A DNA stretch of 64,000 nt from the NCBI GenBank assembly GCA_026770025.1, contig JAMXDE010000012.1:1364001-1428000 (forward strand). Direction: 5' to 3'. Shown here one piece after another: positions 20,327 through 35,068 of this stretch. Position 1 is the stretch's first letter, and every line of letters starts with the position of its first letter. The translations under genes were made by a program, and so were the position numbers. Source of the DNA: Craspedostauros australis (lineage: Eukaryota > Bacillariophyta > Bacillariophyceae > Mastogloiales > Achnanthaceae). The notes under the pieces are model-generated. The model was not told the origin of the DNA. It did not search any database and saw nothing but the letters and a program-made list of their open reading frames with translations.

Positions 20327-23300
20327 TCAGATGTCTCTCATCAGTTGCGTCACGAAGCGGATTTCTTTCCCTGCTTCTGACAGTGCGACGTATTCTGCTT
20401 CTGTCGAGCTGAGTGTTACGCTGCGTTGTGCCTTTGATCTCCATATGATCGGCACTCCTTGTAGTAGGACGATGTGCCCTCCTACGCTGATGCGATTGTC
20501 CTTATCACCCGCGAATTCGCTGTCGGTGAATATTGCAATCTTCCATGCATCGTTAGTCAGTGGACTCGGTTTCATCTTCAGTCCATATTCTCTCGTGTCC
20601 CATACGAATTTCATGACTCGTAGCATCTCCTTGTATGCTAAGGCCGTTGGTCCGTCCAATACTTTGGTCAGCTCTCGCACTGCATTGGCGATGTCGGGTC
20701 GAGAGTGTTTCACCAGGTATAGCAGCATGCCTACTCCGCTTCGGTATCGGCTGTGTCGCTGTTCGTCCACCTTGGGTGCGTCGCTGTTCCTTTGGATGCC
20801 CTGCCCTGGTGTTCCTGGTGTTCCGTATCGTTGTAGTTTCAGCACATTGCTCCCGAACGTATCGATGATGTTCTTGAGGATGTGTGGTTGGTTCACCCAA
20901 CAGTTCGTCTTGTCATGGTTGAATATGATCTTGCAGCTTAGGTAGTCTTCAAGATCCTCCTCCACTTTGACTCCGAACCGTTCCGCTCGTATATTCTTCA
21001 CGAGCTTCTCCAGTTCCTGCTTTTCTCCGATGCAGAGACAATCATCCACATAAGTGCCAATTAAAAGCAGTTGCCCTTCCTGATTCCGAATCAGTAGGCA
21101 TGGGTCTACCTCACTCTGCCTGAACCCTAGCTTGAATAGGATGTCGACGAGCTTCTTATTCCATTGTCTGGCACTCTGCACGAGTCCGTAGATGGTTTTC
21201 TTGAGCAGCAGACATTCGTCGGTTTCGTGCTTCATGCCTTTCGGGCATTGCATATAGATCTCCTCGTCGAGGTCACCGTGTAGGAATGCTGTCTCGAAGT
21301 CGATGATGATGCTATCTAGCTTCAATATCATCTTCATGGTGAGCATGATGCGGTAGGTTGCGTCGTGTATCACCGGTGCGTGGTGCGCTGAGAAGTCGAC
21401 TCCTGCGATTTGCGAGTATCCGCATGCCACGAGTCTGGCGCGGAATACCCCGTTTCGCTTTTCCTTGAAGACCCACTTGGTCTTCACGCACCGCCGATTT
21501 CTCGGCATCCGGTCCTTCTTGATCTTTTCCCATACTTTCCTTCTGGCCATATCGTAGAATTCCTTGTTGATGGCTTCTTGCCACTTCTTTCTCTTACTGG
21601 GGTCCGCGTGGTCCCAGCAGTCCTCAAATGTGGTTGGGTCTAGCAGCATAGCGATGCTCGCTAGTTCCATCCCATCCTCATTTCGTTCGTTGTTCAATGC
21701 TTGGTCCGCAGTGATGATATCGTCAAGTCTCATCATTCCGTGAGGTGTATCTATCATCATACCTGCGATATCTCTGTTGAATGTTGACCCGTCCGCGTGG
21801 AAGTCGGGTCCTCCTGTGTCCGATGGGGATGCGATAGTCTCTTGGGGTGTCTTGTACCCTTCGTCTGTATTTGGTTCTGACTCATCGCTCGATTCAAGGT
21901 CTCGCTCCTCCTCTGGAATGGGTTCTTTGTTGTACCCTGCGAGAGCACTCACCATCCTTGGTACGCGTTGCACAGGTTCTGCGATAGGGGTCTGCTCTGG
22001 CTCATATTTGGCCTCTTCATTTGCTCTCCCCTCATCGTCCCTTCCGAATTCGTCGCCGTCATTATCGTTCGACTCATTTTTCCCATGGGTGGGGAGCAAG
22101 TCATCTTGCCCTCGCGCAGCGTCTTCTGTATCTTCTTTCTCTCCGGCTCTGCTGCTGCGATCTGCGTCGTCGGTCTCCATACCTTTGATGGTCTCCGATC
22201 GTCGCTCCCAAGCTGCTCTCGTGTGTCGAGTCTTCATACCCGATGTAGAGTTGTCATCTTCCAGATCTATCAATATTGATCTGTTGGCATTCTCGATACC
22301 TCTGAATTGCCCATATGACTGATTCATCCATGTCACGTCTCTCGTGATTAGGATCTTAGTTGTTGCGAGGTTCAGCATTCGATATACTCCTTTCGCGTGT
22401 GACTGGCCGTATCCAACGAACATAACTGGTCTGGATCTGTCATCCAGCTTCGCCTTTATCGTGCGGCCTCCGATGTACACCATGCCTATTTCCCCAAAAA
22501 CGCGCAACCCATCCACGTAAGTTGGGATCCGGTTATTGAACAGCACGCATGCTGGTTCTCTCGTTTTCGTCCCGATGATATTCTCCAGTTGGGTAGCGGT
22601 TCTGGCCGCCTCGGCCCATAATTTTCCTCGGACATTTTTCGGCAGGTGTGTGTGATTAAGCATGGCTCGGACTTTCCCGTACAACGTGGCGAATTTTCTT
22701 TCCACGCGCCCGTTCTGTTGCGGCGTAGATGCTGCAGTGTACTCGAACGTTGGACCGAACCCTGCGACGAGCAGTTGCTTCTCCGCGGAATAATTTTCTC
22801 CTGCGTTGTCACATCTGATAATTTTCACTCGTGTTTGCTGATTGACATGGAGCCATTTAAGCAACAGAATCATTTTTGTTCCAACCTCACTCTTCTCCTT
22901 CAGGAAATAGCTCCAACAGTAGTCACTGTAATCATCGAGGACCAGGAGCCAATACTTTCCTTGTCCGTAGCTGTGCGTCTGGACACTTGATGTGTCAATG
23001 AACAGTCGATCACCAACCTCCTTCGCTCGTGATTGGAGTTTCTTCGTCATGGCCTTCTGCCTTTGTTTGCCAATGGCACAGTCCACACATGCATGCAATT
23101 TGCCTGTGACATTCCAACCGTATCGTCCCGCTGTGCGAGAGATCGTGTAAGTGTCAACATGGCCTAACATTTTATGGATTTGGTTGACGTCCACCGCGGT
23201 CTGGGTGGACACGCCAACATTGGCTTGATCGTGAGGGTGAGGGGCGGTGATCATGTTAACGCCGCTCACGAACCCGCTGTGGGTAGCCATAAGTCGGTCG

Positions 23301-26029
23301 AACGTGATGCGTTGTCCGCGCTTCTCCAGGCTCATCACAACACCGTGGTTGCTGATGTTGAAGCCGCTCTCAAGCGCTTTGTTGATGCTGAGGAGGTTCA
23401 CCCACAATTTGGGCACGAACTTCACGTGCTTGAGGAGGATGGTTGCGGTGGTACCGTTTTTCTGCATTACCACCATGCGCTTGTCGCCCACCTTTGTTGC
23501 CTTGATGTAGCGACCGCTGCCGATCTTGATGGAGTGGTCGGCTACGCGAACGTTGGTCATCCCCTCGTCGTTGTTGGTCAGGTGGCACGAGGCACCTGAG
23601 TCGCCCAACCAAGTGTTTGCCTCATGGCGGTCTGGGGCGAGCGTGATGCGGCGTTCTTCGACGCCGTCGATGTCACCGACCACCATCGCCATGTCTGGTT
23701 GCGGGTTTCTCTCGCTGTAGATGGGGAGTTCAGGGAACGCATTTGGGCTGCGGACTCCGTAGTGGCCTGGGTGGTATTTCCACATGACTTGGAGTGCTCC
23801 ACGCGAGGCCAGGCTCCCGATGAGTCCATGGTGGATGGCTGGCAACTGCTCCTTCTCCAGCCTTTCGTTGATATACGGCATGTTCTTCATGACGTTGAAG
23901 GGAGTCATCATCCCGATTTCGCGTAGGAGGAAGTAGAGGGTGCGAGCATCCGCGCGATTGCGTCTGTCTCTCGAGTTGTACTCCTCCACTGTGTCGAGGC
24001 ACAGCAAGGCAAGCTCGGAGCGCACACTGTCAGCCGGCGTGGCGTTGCTCAATGAGTATCGCACTGCGAGTGCGAGGGACTCCTCCTTTGCGAGCATTGC
24101 GCGGCGTTCGTCGCGTTCTTCGTGAGTTGTCGGTTTCACCACGTCCGTTCCTTCCGGTAGATCGATGAGGAAGGGCTGGTTTAGGCAATCGACGCAGTAC
24201 GAGTAGATGTACCCTTGTTTGAAGCACAGTGGGCACGATGCCCATCCTTGGTACATTGCGCGCCCTGCTGCTTCGATCGTCTTCTCGATGGGAGACTTGT
24301 TGGTGGAGAGCGAGAAGACAGGTTCTCTGCAGATGTCTTCCGCTCCGATCACCATGGCCACTTCGTTGGTAGACTCTTCTTCGGTGCTGACGAGGTCTTC
24401 ATCGTAGATGACCTCGTCGAAGAACTCGTCGTCTTTGGTGGACTCGTCGTCGGACGGGAAGAGTTCGCGGTTGATGCGTTCGGTGGCGACCGCTGGTGGT
24501 CCGTAGTGACCATACACCCCTGGGTGGTGGGCCGCCCGCTCTTCCGCCGTCCACTCGGAGCCTTGGTTTGGCTCTTCGTTGCCTTGGTCGCCCATCTCTT
24601 CGTCGGTGGACGTGAGGGCGAGATCTTCGGTGGTCTCCTCTTTGGGAGGCATCATGGCGTGGTCGTTGCTCATGTTTTTCTTGATGTTCGTAATTTCTTG
24701 GGTTGTTACGAGTCTTGGGTTGGTCACATTTTTGACCTCTGTCGAATCGATTTCGAACTCGTTGGTGAGGAAACACATCATCTCCGTGCTATCCATAGAC
24801 TTGTCGTCTTCGGGCAACCAGGAGGGCTCCTCGATCATGGCTAGGGCAACGTCGTCGGCCTTCTCGTTGGAAGGTAACCACATCTCCTCGTCAACTTCAA
24901 TGAAGGAGTCGTAGCCTGCCACATCGTCTTCTGCAGTCCGCCACATGTGTTCTTCGACCATCACGAGGGCGACGTCTGCCTCTTCCCCCATGCTGTCGGT
25001 CGCCACGTTTGCGGCCTCGGCTTCTCGCATCGCTGCTTTCAACTTGAAGCAGTCGAGGATCTTGTGCCCCTTCTTACCGCAGTACTTGCAGTTTCCGTTG
25101 AACTTGTTCTTGGCGGGGGTGTCACCTCTCTTGTTGTTCTTCTTCAAGGCCTTGTTGTTTTTGTTCTTTGGGGGAGAGCGGCAGTCCGCCTTCTTGTGCC
25201 CGTAGGCACCGCAGTTGCGGCAGTACCCTTTGAAGCCGCCCGTGGCAGCGAGAGCCATTTCCTCTTTGGTGTCGCTCTCGCGGCGGTTACTTCCTTGCTT
25301 GATGTGACGTGCGTCGTAGGTGGCACTCACTGCTTCACGGATGTCCTCGATTGACATCGTGGCTTCGATGCCGGTGAACTTGAGCTCGATGAGCTTCACA
25401 TCCATCTCGTAGTCCCTTGCGAGGGCGTTGAGCACGAGCATGTGGTACTGGGTCATGTCCAAGTCGACGCCGGCGTGGGAGAGGCGTCCGCGGAGCACTT
25501 CCATCTCGGTGAGGAACGTGTCCGGGTGTTCTCCCTTCTTCATGCGCATCCCGTTGAGCTGCGCCAACAACTTTGCCTTCATAGGCGCAGTGCGCTGCTC
25601 GTAGATACGCTCAAGAGCCTTCCATGCCTTACGTGGATCTCCTCCCTCGTAAGCGCTGCTCTTGCATCCCAACACAGCCATGAAGGCAACATTGCCTTCG
25701 GTGGTTTCATGGCTAATAGCCATGGTCAGTTCTTCAAACGCGTACTTCGCCAATGCCTTCTTGTACTCAGCCTCCTCTTTAGGAGTCATGGCACTTGGCT
25801 TCTTGGCTTCGTCGTCGTCCTTCTTCTTGCCTTTCACAGGGATGGAAGCAACGGAGGGGACGAACGGTTCTTCCTTCACAACCACATCACCCATGTCCTT
25901 GAGATACAAGTCTCCATAGCCCTTGCGGTTGGCGCGGGCCAGGAACTTCGCACTCCAAGCTTTCCAGCTGGACCGCTTGCCGTCGAACATGATCATGTAA
26001 CGATCAGTCTTACCTAGGAAGGATGTCAT
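20327..26029 (-). CDS. Copia gag-pol polyprotein (protease, integrase, reverse transcriptase, partial RNase H)
   Basis: 1900 residues in one frame. Gag-like N-terminus with two CCHC zinc knuckles near 268 and 313 (CxNCGAYGHKKADC; CKYCGKKGHKILDC). An acidic linker (about 340-780) precedes the protease DSGAS near 808. Integrase has the HHCC finger (HMLGH...CVDC near 948-980), first Asp in DTSS near 1010, and CDNAGEN and TPQQNGRVERKF for the rest of the DDE triad. A degenerate acidic spacer follows. The RT has WVFKEKRNG, DFETAFLHGDL and YVDD (near 1658). RNase H has FTDSEFAGD and SSTEAEYVAL (near 1835-1885). The frame ends at a TGA inside RNase H; the missing part follows in the same frame. Gag and pol are not separated by a stop or frameshift. 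This copy may be non-autonomous unless the stop is read through. Confidence 0.95.
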   Translation of the reverse strand: MTSFLGKTDRYMIMFDGKRSSWKAWSAKFLARANRKGYGDLYLKDMGDVVVKEEPFVPSVASIPVKGKKKDDDEAKKPSAMTPKEEAEYKKALAKYAFEELTMAISHETTEGNVAFMAVLGCKSSAYEGGDPRKAWKALERIYEQRTAPMKAKLLAQLNGMRMKKGEHPDTFLTEMEVLRGRLSHAGVDLDMTQYHMLVLNALARDYEMDVKLIELKFTGIEATMSIEDIREAVSATYDARHIKQGSNRRESDTKEEMALAATGGFKGYCRNCGAYGHKKADCRSPPKNKNNKALKKNNKRGDTPAKNKFNGNCKYCGKKGHKILDCFKLKAAMREAEAANVATDSMGEEADVALVMVEEHMWRTAEDDVAGYDSFIEVDEEMWLPSNEKADDVALAMIEEPSWLPEDDKSMDSTEMMCFLTNEFEIDSTEVKNVTNPRLVTTQEITNIKKNMSNDHAMMPPKEETTEDLALTSTDEEMGDQGNEEPNQGSEWTAEERAAHHPGVYGHYGPPAVATERINRELFPSDDESTKDDEFFDEVIYDEDLVSTEEESTNEVAMVIGAEDICREPVFSLSTNKSPIEKTIEAAGRAMYQGWASCPLCFKQGYIYSYCVDCLNQPFLIDLPEGTDVVKPTTHEERDERRAMLAKEESLALAVRYSLSNATPADSVRSELALLCLDTVEEYNSRDRRNRADARTLYFLLREIGMMTPFNVMKNMPYINERLEKEQLPAIHHGLIGSLASRGALQVMWKYHPGHYGVRSPNAFPELPIYSERNPQPDMAMVVGDIDGVEERRITLAPDRHEANTWLGDSGASCHLTNNDEGMTNVRVADHSIKIGSGRYIKATKVGDKRMVVMQKNGTTATILLKHVKFVPKLWVNLLSINKALESGFNISNHGVVMSLEKRGQRITFDRLMATHSGFVSGVNMITAPHPHDQANVGVSTQTAVDVNQIHKMLGHVDTYTISRTAGRYGWNVTGKLHACVDCAIGKQRQKAMTKKLQSRAKEVGDRLFIDTSSVQTHSYGQGKYWLLVLDDYSDYCWSYFLKEKSEVGTKMILLLKWLHVNQQTRVKIIRCDNAGENYSAEKQLLVAGFGPTFEYTAASTPQQNGRVERKFATLYGKVRAMLNHTHLPKNVRGKLWAEAARTATQLENIIGTKTREPACVLFNNRIPTYVDGLRVFGEIGMVYIGGRTIKAKLDDRSRPVMFVGYGQSHAKGVYRMLNLATTKILITRDVTWMNQSYGQFRGIENANRSILIDLEDDNSTSGMKTRHTRAAWERRSETIKGMETDDADRSSRAGEKEDTEDAARGQDDLLPTHGKNESNDNDGDEFGRDDEGRANEEAKYEPEQTPIAEPVQRVPRMVSALAGYNKEPIPEEERDLESSDESEPNTDEGYKTPQETIASPSDTGGPDFHADGSTFNRDIAGMMIDTPHGMMRLDDIITADQALNNERNEDGMELASIAMLLDPTTFEDCWDHADPSKRKKWQEAINKEFYDMARRKVWEKIKKDRMPRNRRCVKTKWVFKEKRNGVFRARLVACGYSQIAGVDFSAHHAPVIHDATYRIMLTMKMILKLDSIIIDFETAFLHGDLDEEIYMQCPKGMKHETDECLLLKKTIYGLVQSARQWNKKLVDILFKLGFRQSEVDPCLLIRNQEGQLLLIGTYVDDCLCIGEKQELEKLVKNIRAERFGVKVEEDLEDYLSCKIIFNHDKTNCWVNQPHILKNIIDTFGSNVLKLQRYGTPGTPGQGIQRNSDAPKVDEQRHSRYRSGVGMLLYLVKHSRPDIANAVRELTKVLDGPTALAYKEMLRVMKFVWDTREYGLKMKPSPLTNDAWKIAIFTDSEFAGDKDNRISVGGHIVLLQGVPIIWRSKAQRSVTLSSTEAEYVALSEAGKEIRFVTQLMRDI

Positions 26030-27158: not shown

Positions 27159-30100
27159 TTAGACGTACGCGGAGGATGCGTCACTCCAGCACTGGGTACA
27201 GCAGTGGCAAGATACCTGCGGCGGATGGTCGCCACAGTCAGCGTCCAGATGTTCAAAAGTCTGCTGGCAAAACGGTCCCGGAATACTGCCAGTTAGATCA
27301 TTCTTGTCCAGCGTCAAGCTGGTCAGCTTCAACAGCATCCCGAGAGATGAGGGGACGGCACCTCTCAATCCGTTCCCCGTCAATTCAAGACCTTCCAGGT
27401 TGGTGTACTCTCTGATTTCGTCGGGCAGCATCCCGCTCAAGCCACACCATCGGCCTGTTCAGCACGTTTTGCGGTGTGCGTTTGTCCACGGCACCGGCAG
27501 AGCATCGAATACAATAAAGGAGGAAGTGGGTGAGAGCAGTTGTTCGCTTGTCTCCGCCATCACATGAATGTGCTTTTGATCCGCAGCAACATGATTGTAA
27601 ATAAGAACAGCAGCAGCAGCAATGCAGAAAATTCCGCACTCACATTCGAAGACCCTCAGACTTGTTGGGAGTTTCGTAGTATCCAGCACCGACTCCAACG
27701 TTTGTGAGAACGGGGAGTCGTTCCAATTCTGCATTTTGACCGCATGATAATACGGAGCAACGGCATTTGTTACGATGTAGGAGCAAGCATGATAACCATG
27801 AATTGATATGATGTTGCGTGTGTATTATGTGACGGACAAAGAGAAAGAGAGCGTGCGCGCGTGGGTGCGTGAGCAAGCGACAGTGACGAAGAAAAGAGAA
27901 GAAAGCCAGAGGACGAGCGACAGCGTCAAGCTTCGGACAATCCATAACCTTTGGACGGAATTGCGACCAGTGCTGCACACACAACTCCAACGATAGCGAC
28001 GGTGACCATCACTCGTGGTCTTTTCAAAAAAAAATCGTGTGGCAAAACTCACCAATGAAAGGACCTCCAGCCTGCCATCATTGTCACTGAAGAATGCTGG
28101 GAATGTGCCAGAGAGCTTGTTCGATGCCAGGTACAGCTCCTTGAGGTTTTTCAAGTTCCCCACGTCCTCTGGGATCTGCCCTTCCAGATTATTAGAGTCA
28201 AGGTCGAGAACGGAAAGCAATTGCATGTCACCGACCTCTGTCGGAATCTCGCCGACTAAACCCGCACTCGACAGTTCAAGGGTGGTCATGGATTTGAATC
28301 TGCCAACAGTTGCTGGCATCGCGCTGTTGATGATGCACTCGCGGCCTGATTGATTGCGACGGTGTCATTGGAATGTTTGCAATAGTGCGCATTCGTATGG
28401 CGGGTGGTTTGGACGTGGTGAGATAAATCGCAGTTCTCAATCAAATATGAACACAACACAACACATTAATCCGTCCAGGTAGCACTCGTATCAACCCTTG
28501 TACCAGCACATCACACCATGGATGTTTGAAGGAAATTCACGCGCATGAAAGCAGCGGGTTGGTCATCGTCACTAGTCGCTGTGCCCATCCGCGAAGCCGG
28601 ATTTCAAAGGGATCAGAAAGTACCATTGGTCCCACTTACATTTGAATTCACCAAGGTCCTTCGTGAGGGTGGCGAAAAATGCATGCAGACCAACGGTCAA
28701 TCCGTTCAGGGAATTCTGTTCATCGTGATCGAGGAGAGTGGAGCGCATGTATGAATGCGCCACGATGTGGATAACATGAGCAGTTTGGCGAATTTTGAGG
28801 GGAAAAGCCCGAATGCATCGTAATGCGAGGGTTAGCCACAAGTTCTGAGAGCACACGACACCACAAACGGATGCCAAAGAGAGCAAGGACCATTTCCCGC
28901 GAACGCAAAGCTGCTGCATTTGTCTCATTCTCTCCATCAATAACACCATGAAAGCACTCATCTCGCACCAACTTACCAAATCAAGAGAGTGCAACTCTTT
29001 GGCATTTGCAAAGCTCGGAAGGCTTCCGCTGATGTCGTCGTTGTTCCGGAGAATCAACGACCGCAGGTTTTGGAGGTCTCCAATCTTTGACGGGATGACT
29101 CCAGACAGCGAATTGCCTCCAAGATTGAGGAACTCGAGCTGCTGCAACTGTGACACCTGAGTTGGTATCTTCCCCCTCAGCAAACAGGAAGATGCTTCAA
29201 ACTCCGTCAGAGACTCCAGCATTCCAATTTCCGTCGGAATCACTCCTTCAACCTTCGTGTCATCGATGTTCAATCTCCTCAGCTTGCTGTAGCCTCCAAT
29301 CGCTGGGGGTAGAGACCCTCGCAACGCACAGGATCCGCCTGCATGAATTTGTTTGTGTTCGATAGAGAGACAGAGAGAGGAGAGCAGCAGCAACAACACA
29401 GTCGGCATTGGACGGAGTTAGACAACATTGTGTCTTCCACAATCAACGCACGGTGCAAATCAAAATCGCATCGTCTGTACAGTGCTGTGCTTGAGAGGAC
29501 TCCTCGGTGGCATTCAGAAAGCTTGGAGGTTTCTGTACTTACAAAGGAATACTTCCAGCTTTTCTGTGGGGGTAGTTGTGAAGATGGTGTCGACGTCAGC
29601 CCAAAGGGCCATGTTGTTTGCCTAGGCGTGTTGACATCGTGAAAGAAAAACAGAGCACAAGTACATGTACGTACGCGGAGAGTTGCACGGGATTGAAGAG
29701 TGTGAGAGACAATCTTTTCGTGGACAAAACCACCATCAGCTTGGAAGCGCTCAATCACTGCTGGATCGCAGCAATGCCCGTGATTTCCAATGCAAGCATT
29801 ACGTGCACAGAGAGAGGAACTCACCAAGTCAATGGTTGTGATCGCTTGCGCGTTCTTGGCGAAGCTTGGAATGGGCCCGATTAGATGATTGTTGTACATG
29901 ACCAGTTCGCGTAGGTTCGGTAGATCACCTAAGGACTGCGGGAGCACTCCGTTCATGTTGTTGGTGTTGAGTACGAGTGTCTCCAAGTTTTGCAAGTTTC
30001 CGATCTCCGTGGGAAGGCTCCCGTTAACATGATTGTTCGTCAGGATGAGATCGACAAGCCTAGTGAGTTCACCGATCTGAGATGGTATGGGACCCTCGAT

Positions 30101-33100
30101 GTCATTTCCGGATACGACGAGCGATGACAATTTCTTGCAACGCCCGATTGTAGTTGGGAGGCTTCCCGTCAGATGGCACGACCGACCTGCGAGAGTGATC
30201 AGAGCGTTGCAAAAAGGGAAAAACGGGAGTGACAAAACAGCAACGTGGAACGAAAACGAGTGAGAGTAGAGCAGCGTAAATGGCCACACCTTGCAATTCA
30301 CAGTGTACGTGCGAGTAAGCAATGCCCATTCTAACAACAATTGTGGACTTGTTGCTTGCAGTTTGGGACCTGCGACAGCACGCACGCAAAGTTGCAATGG
30401 ACCAACTTACAATCGAATCTCTGCAGATTCTCGCAGGGCATCATGTCCAACAGAATCTCGATGTCTCCGGACAGGCGGAAGTTCCTATTCTGTGGGTGCA
30501 GTGGGAAATGAGAGCAACGAATTGTTGGCGTGAGCAACGGGCAGGGTGTGAGATAGGCGCATACATGTGCGTATACATGTACATATGCATGTACGTACAG
30601 AACGAAAGGCATCGCCATACATGTGCTTCTGATCTTTCCCATTGATGTGGCTTTCAATCACCAGACTTACAAGGTTGATTGCCAAGAGCGACGAAGAATT
30701 CGCTGTTCCAGAGAATGTCGGAATTGTCCCAGACAGATCATTTCCCCACATCTCGAGCTTCTGTAAGTTCTTCAGTTGATTGATTTCGGTCGGTATCTTC
30801 CCATTCAGCTTGTTCCCACCAAGCGAGATCCGCCTGATGAGTTCCAAATTCTCGATAGTGCGAGGGAGTCCACCCTCTAGTCTGTTGCAGTGAAGACCCA
30901 ATATCTGAAGATTGGTCAACAAGCCAATCTCGGTGGGGAAAGGGCCATCAATCCCGCCGTTCTGGTTCTGCTTAGAATCGTCCAGATTCATAATCTCCAA
31001 CCGTGTGAATCGTTCTAGGTCCGTGCTCGGCATGGTTCCCTTCAGGAAACATTCATGACCTTGAGTTGGGTATGATCAGCCAGTGGGACGACAACGTGCA
31101 GTGCACATCATCGGCAGGAACACAGTAGTAGTCGCAGTATCAAAGGATGGCCCACGGAAGATGGTACGTAGCAATCCAGGTGCACGCAAGTACATTGAGA
31201 AGAACAAAGAGCAGATGAAGACGGCGTTGTTGTGAGCATTTTTGCATTGGGATGATCTGAGGGCGCTGAAGGCTTCATGTTTGAGGTCGTGCTCAAGTGA
31301 TGGCGCGTGCTTCGACGCTGTACTTACAGAAAATGGTATGAAAGTCTTCACCGGAGACGTCTCGGAAGAATTCTTCGACATCGAAATGGAACTCGTTGTT
31401 ATCCTGGACCCTTCTCTATCACCACCACGCAGGAGCAAACACACGGTAATGGAATCCAAATAAGTTTGGAGATGGAAAATGAAGCAGGATATGGCCATGA
31501 GAAGCATGTCAACAAATTAAGGCAAACACAGGAGTTCGTCGAAACCAAAAATTCGCCCAAAGCGGCAGGACAACGAACGCGATTCCGTCTCAATGGTTCG
31601 GCGGCACGGAATCATGAAGCACCTTTGGTTTTTCCCACTTACTAGATCGACCATTTGGAGCTTGCCACCGTTGTTTGCAAATGAAGGAATCGTCCCATTC
31701 ATCTTGTTGTGGGATACCTCCAAGCTCACCAGAGTCTGGATTGATGCCACAGACTGTGGGAGTGAACCGGTCAAGCCGTTGTCGCTGAACAGAATACGTT
31801 CTAGCGCCAGGCCAAGCCCGATTTCGTCGGGGATCGGGCCATGCAGTTTGTTCGATCTGAGATCGAGCTCCTGCAACGCCTGCAGTGTTCCAAGCACCGG
31901 AGGGATCACGCCTCCCACTCCCGTATTGTAGATATCGAAAATTCGGAGATGGGCAAAGCGGGTTATGGACGGTCCTGGCAGGTCTTGATCGGCAAAGACG
32001 CATTCAGAACCTGTGAGAACCGAAATGCAAGAAGACGGCATTGCGTTAGAGATGTGGCGGGGGGTACCTTTGTGGTTCGGTGAAAGAAATGGAAACAGAC
32101 AGTCATGTTGAATCCACATGCAACAAAATGAATATTCTCTGTGCCGATACGAGGCAGTACACAACACAGCGCGGTTGGGCAACAGAAGCAGACTTACAGC
32201 GGAAGCTCTCCAGATTGCCAGGTGGGATGGATTCGAGAATCTCCGACAGGTTGCCGTGGAGTCTACCCTCTTCATGAATGTTGTCCTCCTGCGACATCGA
32301 GCGATTCAAGAGGATCAGGAACGAGGGAATGGAAGGACGAGGAGGAGTACGAGAGTGAGGAATGTGATCATGTAGAGGCGAGACTAGACAAGGTTGTGGC
32401 TGTTGAGTTCTGCATCTTGTCTGTGCGTCATACCAACCCATCCCATGCTTCGCATCTTGATTTCGCAACTTACCATGTCGATGTTGGCAATTGTACCAGA
32501 GTTGTTGTGAAATGAAGGGATGGATCCCGACAGCATATTGCCACGCAATATGAGTTGCACCAGGTTTGGCAGTGAGGCAATGGCTTGCGGGATTGTACCG
32601 GTGAAAGCATTGTTAGCAAGGTCCAGCACCATCAGATCCTGCATTGCCGACAAATGCGTTGGTATCCCTTCATCGATGCCATTGTTACCCAAATTCAACT
32701 CTCGGAGCTCTGTGAAATATTGGATCTCCGTTGGAATCGCGCCCTTCAGCCTGTTGCCATTCAAATTCACCTTTTCGACGACTGTATCTACCGAGCAGAT
32801 AATACCGATCGTATCTCTCTGAGAACTGGGTGGCTTGTTCCAATCGCAAATGTGGCCCGCCGTCAGAAAATTGGCCCCATCATTCCACCCGACGCCTTCG
32901 AGTACGAAATACAGCAAGGCGGCCACATAGCGGCTCCTCAGCTCTTCCACAGGATAGGTGTCCACAGGCTTCTTGCCAGGGTCGCCGTGCGCGAGCCAGA
33001 AGAGCGCGCTGAACTGATGCGTTGATGGGTCGTCGAGCAACGTGCCAGACAATGGGAAGAGCAGATCTCGCATCCGGTTGAAGTCTGTGCTTGTCGGGCT

Positions 33101-35068
33101 GGGTGTGCGAAACCTGTCTTCGGTTGGCGCAAGTGTGGGTGCCTTGGTCATGAGCGACCCAAGGATGGAAACTCTGGGAAGGTCCACAACTTGCTCGAAC
33201 GCCAATTGCAGCCTGCCGTCCGTGATGGCATCATCAATGGCTCCCAGTAGTCTAGCCGGGACGATAGACAAAGGGTCCGCGCCCAGCACTTCCATTGTGG
33301 CTGTGATGCTCTCGCACCGGTCATTTGGAGTGGTTCCTTGTTGATACGGACATGCTGTAGGTACCGACGGACATGTGCCGCAAGCGATGAAATGTGGGGG
33401 GAGAGAGAGAGGTGAGACGACATCGATGACGGTAAACTAATGGAGTACAATGCTTCGGTATCAAATCAATGAACACGCGCACACGCACACTCCATTCATG
33501 TTCTGATTGCTTTTGATGCCATCATTCCTTTGCCTGCAGCTTCGGCGTCATACCGATGCTGCAGTGGTGGCGTCCAAGCAAACCCTGCAATGCAATTTCC
33601 ACTTACCCATTCCGCCGACATTTGTTATTCTGGTTGGAAGATCGAGAGATTCGGCCAACTGACGTTGGTGTGGCTCCAAGTGACGGTATCTGAGGCGGAC
33701 GCCGCCATCAGATGTTGGGCTTGGCTTGCCAATGACTTCCTGCAGAACTTGCGGCGCCAGCAAATCCATGCTAGCGATGAGAACGGGAACGTACACACTT
33801 TGATCCAGAGAATTGATGTTCGCATCCTTGACGACGACGGCATACTCCACTTCGATTTCGGTGCGTGACTCCATCACAGGTTGAGTCGATGTCGCGTCAA
33901 TCACGTCGGCGCTGGGTGCGGGCGCGGGGGTTGGTTCCAGTTCCCCGTTTTGGGAGTTGGATGCACCGCCGCTGTCGCCGCTTCCAAACACGGCAATGCC
34001 AATGCCGACTCCAGCTGCTACCGCAAGTAGCACGATGAAGATGACTATCCACGTGAGCCGGCTCCTTTTACGTTTGCCAGTGTCGCTGTCGTCATCCACA
34101 ATGCGATCATCGACATCGGCAGACTTCACATTCGTGCTGTTGCGCGAAGGTCGGGTGGGACGCGGCCGGCTCGGCTGCGGCGTCTCTGCCTGGGCGATCA
34201 CCTCTCCAACGGCCGCTTCTGCCAGCAGGGTCTTGCGAACCTGCTGCGTGATGCGCCTCGTCTCCTCCTGGAATTCTTGGCGCAACCGATTCTCCAACTC
34301 ATACGCATCGTCGGACGTGTTGACGACCTGCGCGGCGATGACGGCCGCAGGCATGCCACCAGAAACCGGAGTTGGCGAAGGAGGAGGCGCCGGTGCCATC
34401 CGGACAATCGCTCTGGCATCGCTCGAAGGTTCTTCTTGGGGGTGTTGCCCAGGGTAGTGCATTGGAATGGAGCTTCCTGGATCGCCCTTCAGCGGTCGTA
34501 GGTCAGGCTCCGCCATGGAGTTGCTGTAAGCAAATGCTCCCACCGGAGTCACATTGAAACCCGGAACAATACCGTTCTGCGCTCCAGCAGCGGCATCTGC
34601 GGGCGTCGGATGTTGTCCAGAGCTGGGAGATGTGCTGGAGCCTTCCGCCATCGCGGTGAGTGCCGTTGGTATCGCCGGCATTTGCTCACCAAGTCGATGC
34701 AACGCCTTGTCGGCATCGGCGGATGAAGTCCTCGCCACGCTTGGAGACGTGCGCCTCACCGATTGCCGCGACGACGAAGCAGGGCTGCGGTTCTTCTGTT
34801 CGGGCGAAAGCGGATTGATGATTTGCGGCTTCGTCTCTCCGCTGTCCACTGCCGCCAACTTGCCTCGCGCCAGATCGTCAGTGCCAACCTGCGCGTCGGC
34901 ATCCATGGCTCTGCGCGCAGCTGCGTCGATGCTTGTGTCCAGCGCTGGCCGTCCCGATGGTGGTGGGGTTTGCACGGATGATGACTGCGATTCGCCTCTC
35001 CTCATTGGTGGCGGCAGAGGAACGTCCGCCTCGTCCGCGGCTGCGCCCTTCTTCTTGTTCGGTGACAT
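27159..35068 (-). CDS. 1632-residue leucine-rich-repeat transmembrane protein, 14 exons in a two-exon repeat pattern
   Basis: Exons on the minus strand: 35068-33607, 33354-32474, 32288-32198, 32010-31643, 31403-31328, 31059-30671, 30489-30411, 30186-29825, 29621-29543, 29338-28977, 28715-28640, 28345-28053, 27728-27644, 27454-27159. Every intron starts GTAAGT or GTGAGT and ends AG; phases alternate 1,0,1,0 and all joins keep frame. Residues 1-335: disordered cytosolic part with a juxtamembrane motif (RLRQEFQEETRRITQQV, AEAAVG) near 255-290. TM about 337-360 after KRKRSR, so the N-terminus is inside. Outside: a membrane-proximal region, an alpha-helical cap with Trp/Cys (GVGWNDGANF, HICDWN), then about 25-30 LRRs of LxxNxLxGxIP type, and a Cys-rich C-cap (ADC, VSCHCCTQC). 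This is a receptor-like protein without kinase, as in pennate diatom LRR families; the ligand is unknown. The start at 35068 is chosen because upstream Mets add only an atypical extension. Confidence 0.9.

Follow-up and report, generated by a model that had tools for sequence, protein, structure and literature searches.

The 64,000-nucleotide (nt) stretch of Craspedostauros australis DNA analysed here (hereafter, the window; positions 1,364,001 to 1,428,000 of contig JAMXDE010000012.1, assembly GCA_026770025.1) carries on its minus strand, at 35068..27159, a gene for a protein rich in leucine-rich repeats (LRRs), whose 14 exons join in frame to encode a single product of 1632 amino acids (aa). 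Twelve of the exons form six cassettes, each consisting of a mini-exon followed by a large exon. The explanation that best fits our results, and which we consider probable as a whole, is that a frame-neutral exon pair was duplicated in tandem in the distant past and the copies then diverged in place, and that the product is an LRR protein of receptor-like or adhesion type, with a single membrane span and no kinase domain.

The exons follow a strict pattern (Table 1). All mini-exons are 1 mod 3 and all large exons 2 mod 3, with exactly the lengths given in a sequence-only reading of this DNA, and the alternation of intron phases that it described holds over all 13 introns (phases 1,0,1,0... from intron 1), each bounded by GT..AG. 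A Cys codon is split (T/GT or T/GC) at all six mini/large junctions, and each large exon resumes with C-x-x-C, likewise as described; the LxxFxC ending ascribed to every mini-exon is exact in five of the six, exon 5 having FHTIFC instead. The five large exons preceding the last end in I/L/V-D/N/S-L, as had been noted, and exon 2 ends in IDM. The interval first assigned to the gene (27159..33354) covers exons 2-14 and misses the gene start at 35068. Introns 2-13 measure 181-324 nt and intron 1 252 nt, which agrees with the earlier range of about 180-325 nt; this uniformity is not peculiar to the gene, given that the introns of three related loci (L011, L010, and L021) span 196-251, 150-255, and 296-369 nt, respectively. 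Introns 6, 8, and 10 are stop-free in frame, possibly by chance. Since intron 10 (within 28640-29338, minus strand) is 261 nt long (0 mod 3) and lacks an in-frame stop, it constitutes a single open frame together with the flanking exons 10 and 11, and retention of the intron would preserve the frame.

The exon and phase pattern is more than chance, because the three other loci of the genome have introns at matching places and in matching phases and because P0004, a 1115-aa relative from JGI, is continuous across the matching mini/large joints. The three loci contain two cassettes each, so that the cassette number varies by locus (6 versus 2, 2, and 2). In L011 and L010, the phases run 0,1,0,1, the mini-exons measure 85 and 88 nt, the first large exons 365 nt, and the last exons 440 and 443 nt; the two cassettes of L021 comprise exons of 85, 365, 88, and 446 nt. 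Across the four contiguous models, the phase rule is kept by 23 of 23 cassette introns, and 10 of the 12 mini-exons split a Cys codon, the first mini-exons of L010 and L011 having Ala and Val. A probable 5′ exon of L021 is found in L009, 16.6 kb away, and the match there holds one TGA stop. Just upstream of the two L021 cassettes, between them and this probable 5′ exon, lies an open frame of ~880 aa (L021 4892-7546, plus strand) on the strand opposite to the cassettes; by eye, it resembles a mobile element.

The genome contains at least four cassette loci, a lower bound: loci L009-L012, L018, and L021-L023 were read, L013-L017, L019, and L020 were scanned by script only, and a strict search for the phase-0 exon-end pattern in L001-L020 and the window recovers two of the six ends that precede mini-exons in the window gene. 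A model of the mini-exons, run against L009-L023 and the window, returned its own 12 mini-exons and a weak match in L018 (E-value 0.0043), where the mini-like LRR sits in an uninterrupted frame. Among the matches listed for a composite 42-aa query were also C53 (L018), C2:1833884, and two places on C30. L022 and L023, the latter being one of the two C30 places, were rejected because each is an LRR gene with a single long frame and no cassette.

At the protein level, each cassette corresponds to a super-repeat comprising as many as six LRRs, in which the mini-exon encodes one aberrant LRR and the large exon begins with CxxC and ends in IPSF..DL. Both cassette introns cut an LRR at nearly the same spot, the two sites lying two bases apart. 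In an LRR-by-LRR score matrix covering the 9 of 16 cassettes that have six units, cut by hand (W5, W6, Q3, K2, and J2, as well as M1 and M2, are omitted; W and Q denote cassettes of the window gene and P0004), the mini, first, and last LRRs proved position-specific and the middle LRRs interchangeable. Against all other LRRs, the scores of the mini LRRs are close to zero or negative. This position specificity already disfavours the view that the pattern reflects a general habit of LRR genes to place introns at LRR borders, with no history at the level of the cassette. That view can point to the interchangeable middle LRRs, to W3, which fits control LRRs nearly as well, to the similar gene L012 of this genome, and to the whole-LRR exons known in brown algae and Tetrahymena from the available portions of the reports (PMC11378527, PMC6564038), and we regard it as very unlikely.

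The cassettes are homologous units, each pair being frame-neutral, as the sequence-only reading proposed. The check that it set, whether they align better with one another than with unrelated LRRs, had a mixed outcome, W3 being the exception among those compared. For W1, W2, W3, W4, and W5, the in-gene mean score is reached by 0.9, 1.8, 15.1, 0.1, and 5.7% of control windows, respectively (a sample of 1500 out of 3625 LRR windows taken from 119 database proteins; W6 was left out). Judged by these scores, W1, W2, W4, and W5 are related beyond generic LRR likeness, whereas W3 is close to the LRR consensus. A register shift of -3 gives 171.6 versus 180.1 in register, a comparison that is uninformative because end gaps are cheap.

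Order along the array was compared with P0004, the sole match at an E-value of 0.001 among 2868 candidates when residues 400-690 (the last part of exon 1 plus the greater part of the exon 2 cap domain) were searched against ~5.8 billion proteins. P0004 shares 39% identity over 83% of residues 480-1600 and holds four cassettes in full, plus the beginning of a fifth. By whole-cassette score, all four match the same-numbered window cassette best, Q1 by a margin of 240 to 239, and cassette 2 of both proteins carries an insertion at the same place. The C-terminus of P0004 (..ALKCE) coincides exactly with the position of window intron 11, where T/GTGAG would read Cys-Glu; the end could thus represent an unspliced intron, the upstream joints being continuous. 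Two further proteins, P0121 and P0122, found with part of L011, have the cap domains in common by eye and look secreted, with no cassette recognized by eye.

Nucleotide comparisons within the gene (blastn, word size 7, plus strand, E-values up to 0.1) yielded one 12-base match among the 13 introns and one 20-base match at 90% identity among the 14 exons, and recent tandem duplication was rejected on these grounds. Because DNA likeness is limited to such short matches and P0004 gives whole-cassette matches in the same order, the array appears old, with its order maintained to the extent that P0004 reveals it. We propose that an exon pair at homologous LRR positions was duplicated in tandem long ago, that the resulting array was probably built before the P0004 lineage split off, and that the cassettes diverged in place thereafter; the extracellular part would be one continuous plant-type LRR solenoid composed of super-repeats. 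Tandem duplication is the simplest account because it yields the alternation of phases, the position specificity of LRRs, and the constant period all at once. The duplicated unit is equally readable as a large exon followed by a mini-exon, with 1-1 phases.

Alternatively, the protein super-repeat might have come first, introns having been inserted in parallel at one favoured LRR site in each copy. This scenario calls for twelve insertions, hitting in strict alternation two sites separated by two bases and confined to the two ends of one special LRR, and we consider it unlikely, even though the genome offers some hints of such a favoured site. Exons 4, 6, and 8 start with GT after T, as the introns do, and the weak mini-like LRR of L018 is uninterrupted. 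Of 16 donor-like sites in LRR frames, 12 are at the LxL site (8 in phase 0, 4 in phase 1) and one, in L012, lies three residues further on; L016 and L017 contribute one each at a different position of the LRR, against a single favoured site, and the last is in the window and corresponds to no intron of the gene model. In L012 (2574-4176, plus strand), an LRR gene of different build, all five donor-like sites are in phase 1 and four of them fall one base past the LxL codon; judging from these sites, its intron habit is different from that of the cassette gene, yet related.

A different alternative to ancient duplication with divergence in place is that the cassette acts as a live diversity unit, with pairs spliced out or gained and lost between strains to yield variants in length and specificity, in line with a proposal made for brown-algal LRR genes. 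Frame-neutral gain or skipping of pairs is possible: each pair is 0 mod 3, and because the two introns occupy almost identical positions in the LRR consensus, the LRR register should survive removal of a pair. The difference in cassette number between loci (6 versus 2) agrees with this, as does the alternative splicing of ROCO LRR exons in brown algae mentioned in the available part of PMC11378527. The shortness of the intron and exon matches and the shared cassette order of P0004 argue the other way, and we consider ongoing diversification improbable. Of the route to variants suggested by the sequence-only reading, the frame-neutral pairs and the locus-to-locus difference in number stand, and the notion of a current engine of variation is not supported. 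Similarly, it seems rather a long shot that a two-exon module dedicated to the purpose, about six LRRs long and jointed at the aberrant, helix-bearing LRR, serves to build the ectodomain of a surface receptor in such a way that whole solenoid segments could be added or dropped by splicing or recombination with frame and fold intact.

Several observations weigh against ancient duplication with order retained. The splice sites of the 14-exon model are based on frame, splice consensus, and homology rather than on complementary DNA, and the comparison of order depends on a single relative. Same-number pairing with P0004 drops to two of four when mini-exons alone are scored and to three of four with large exons alone, which slightly weakens the colinearity. 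A cassette tree, such as had been suggested, pairs W2 with Q2 (86/85) but does not place the window cassettes in one group and is weakly resolved, with 2 of 11 inner branches starred, leaving room for later exchange. W3 is no closer to its sister cassettes than many control LRR windows are, and, given the stop codon in the 5′ exon match and the 16.6-kb gap, L009 and L021 may be broken or not one gene.

A Pfam scan of the 1632 aa at an E-value of 0.001 detected LRR families only, with LRR_8 (138.2 bits), LRR_14 (165.8), and LRR_1 (152.6) above the curated cut-off; neither a protein kinase family nor ROC-COR domains were found at this threshold. One strong hydrophobic segment (hydropathy 2.93 at residue 341, compared with 1.52 for the next best elsewhere) follows KRKRSR, pointing to a likely membrane span at residues about 341-359, ahead of the LRRs. 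It is preceded by a tail of low complexity with a coil, ELENRLRQEFQEE... (by eye), the coil being common to L010, L011, and P0004 (by eye), and followed by the cap domain, plant-type LRRs, and a Cys-rich C-terminal end, similar to those seen by eye in L010, L011, L021, and P0121/P0122. The structure model of P0004 has a low predicted local distance difference test score (pLDDT) at 43-335 and a helix at 18-47, and P0004 displays the solenoid fold and LRR consensus of plant receptor ectodomains (TDR/PXY, RGFR1, PEPR1, and FLS2). By analogy with P0004, where it is modelled, the mini-exon LRR of the window protein may bear a helix on its convex side. In contrast to the plant receptors, the window protein has a likely membrane span ahead of the LRRs, no detected kinase domain, and an aberrant LRR at about every sixth position. 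The predicted topology is N-inside with a surface location, and signalling or adhesion may proceed via the conserved cytoplasmic coil. A role as surface receptor or adhesion molecule is suggested by this architecture together with MRP2 and MRM2 of Pseudo-nitzschia multistriata, kinase-less transmembrane LRR proteins that, in the available text of PMC6261938, are hypothesized to be pheromone receptors or adhesion molecules. The likeness is one of description (a diatom transmembrane LRR protein without a recognizable kinase domain) rather than of sequence or exon structure, and no cassette is described in that text.

Partial texts of published work provide two precedents for modular LRR exons. 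Brown-algal LRR-ROCO genes (PMC11378527, citing Zambounis 2012) contain one 72-bp phase-2 exon per LRR, shuffle these exons, and encode a ROC-COR GTPase. They resemble the present gene as stramenopile LRR genes with introns at a fixed LRR position, exons holding whole LRRs, and frame-neutral units, whereas here the unit has two exons (76-91 and 293-389 nt), phases alternating 0/1, and up to six LRRs, and the protein has a likely membrane span, no ROC-COR domains found, and no sign of recent shuffling. Tetrahymena carries arrays of 90-bp phase-2 LRR exons, which occur in many hundreds of T. thermophila genes, some of them conserved at the nucleotide level and undergoing ectopic recombination (PMC6564038). 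In-phase arrays with copy numbers differing between paralogues are common to both systems, but the ciliate exons have a single length and phase, as opposed to two exon classes, phases 0/1, at least four loci, and old divergent copies here. In diatoms, several genes with an LRR receptor-like annotation are regulated during sexual reproduction in P. multistriata (PMC5485032), and the Seminavis genome has tandem-duplicated LRR genes (PMC7335047), as far as the accessible text goes. No two-exon LRR cassette in diatoms appeared among the matches listed from a mostly open-access literature, judged by title and opening of the abstract. Single-LRR phase-2 exon modularity is known; what sets the present gene apart is the larger two-exon unit, the alternating phases, and the structural mark at the joint.

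Table 1. Exons of the cassette LRR gene, in order of transcription (window coordinates)
Feature	Position	Strand	Description
Exon 1	33607..35068	-	1462 nt; low-complexity N-terminal tail, coil, likely membrane span, start of extracellular part
Exon 2	32474..33354	-	881 nt; pre-LRR cap domain and first LRRs; end GSIPSF..IDM
Mini-exon 3, cassette 1	32198..32288	-	91 nt; one aberrant LRR; last base is first of Cys codon
Large exon 4, cassette 1	31643..32010	-	368 nt; five LRRs; CxxC start, IPSF..VDL end
Mini-exon 5, cassette 2	31328..31403	-	76 nt
Large exon 6, cassette 2	30671..31059	-	389 nt; LRR insertion, same place as in P0004 cassette 2
Mini-exon 7, cassette 3	30411..30489	-	79 nt
Large exon 8, cassette 3	29825..30186	-	362 nt
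Mini-exon 9, cassette 4	29543..29621	-	79 nt
Large exon 10, cassette 4	28977..29338	-	362 nt
Mini-exon 11, cassette 5	28640..28715	-	76 nt
Large exon 12, cassette 5	28053..28345	-	293 nt; one LRR fewer
Mini-exon 13, cassette 6	27644..27728	-	85 nt
Large exon 14, cassette 6	27159..27454	-	296 nt; last LRRs, Cys-rich C-cap (ADCG..CHCCTQCW), stop

The window also contains a single 1900-aa open frame (20327-26029, minus strand) of a copia-type long terminal repeat element, bearing gag, SH3, and RVT_2 domains and located downstream of the LRR gene, about 1.1 kb from its 3′ end. Genome-wide, the silicon transporter family PF03842 has 88 matches (e.g., at C2:977655-1028778, C61, C9, C24, and C11), 32 of which cover at least 480 of the 513 positions, 28 of those being stop-free. 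Diatoms usually carry a handful of silicon transporters, and the family here looks like a large expansion. Contig C90 encodes a rubisco large subunit whose five best matches among solved structures (7yk5, 5mz2, 5n9z, 5oya, and 6ftl) are diatom enzymes, which, like the many silicon transporter matches, fits a diatom genome.

Collectively, these comparisons suggest that the cassette is an old building block that has stayed fairly stable and is not being freshly shuffled, and that arrays of this kind can stay in order over a deep split. The ordered array is a possible counter-example to the interpretation of LRR exon arrays in terms of immune diversity. It also provides a clear family in which a possible recognition or adhesion role can be examined in diatoms, where membrane LRR proteins that lack a kinase domain are candidates for mating receptors.
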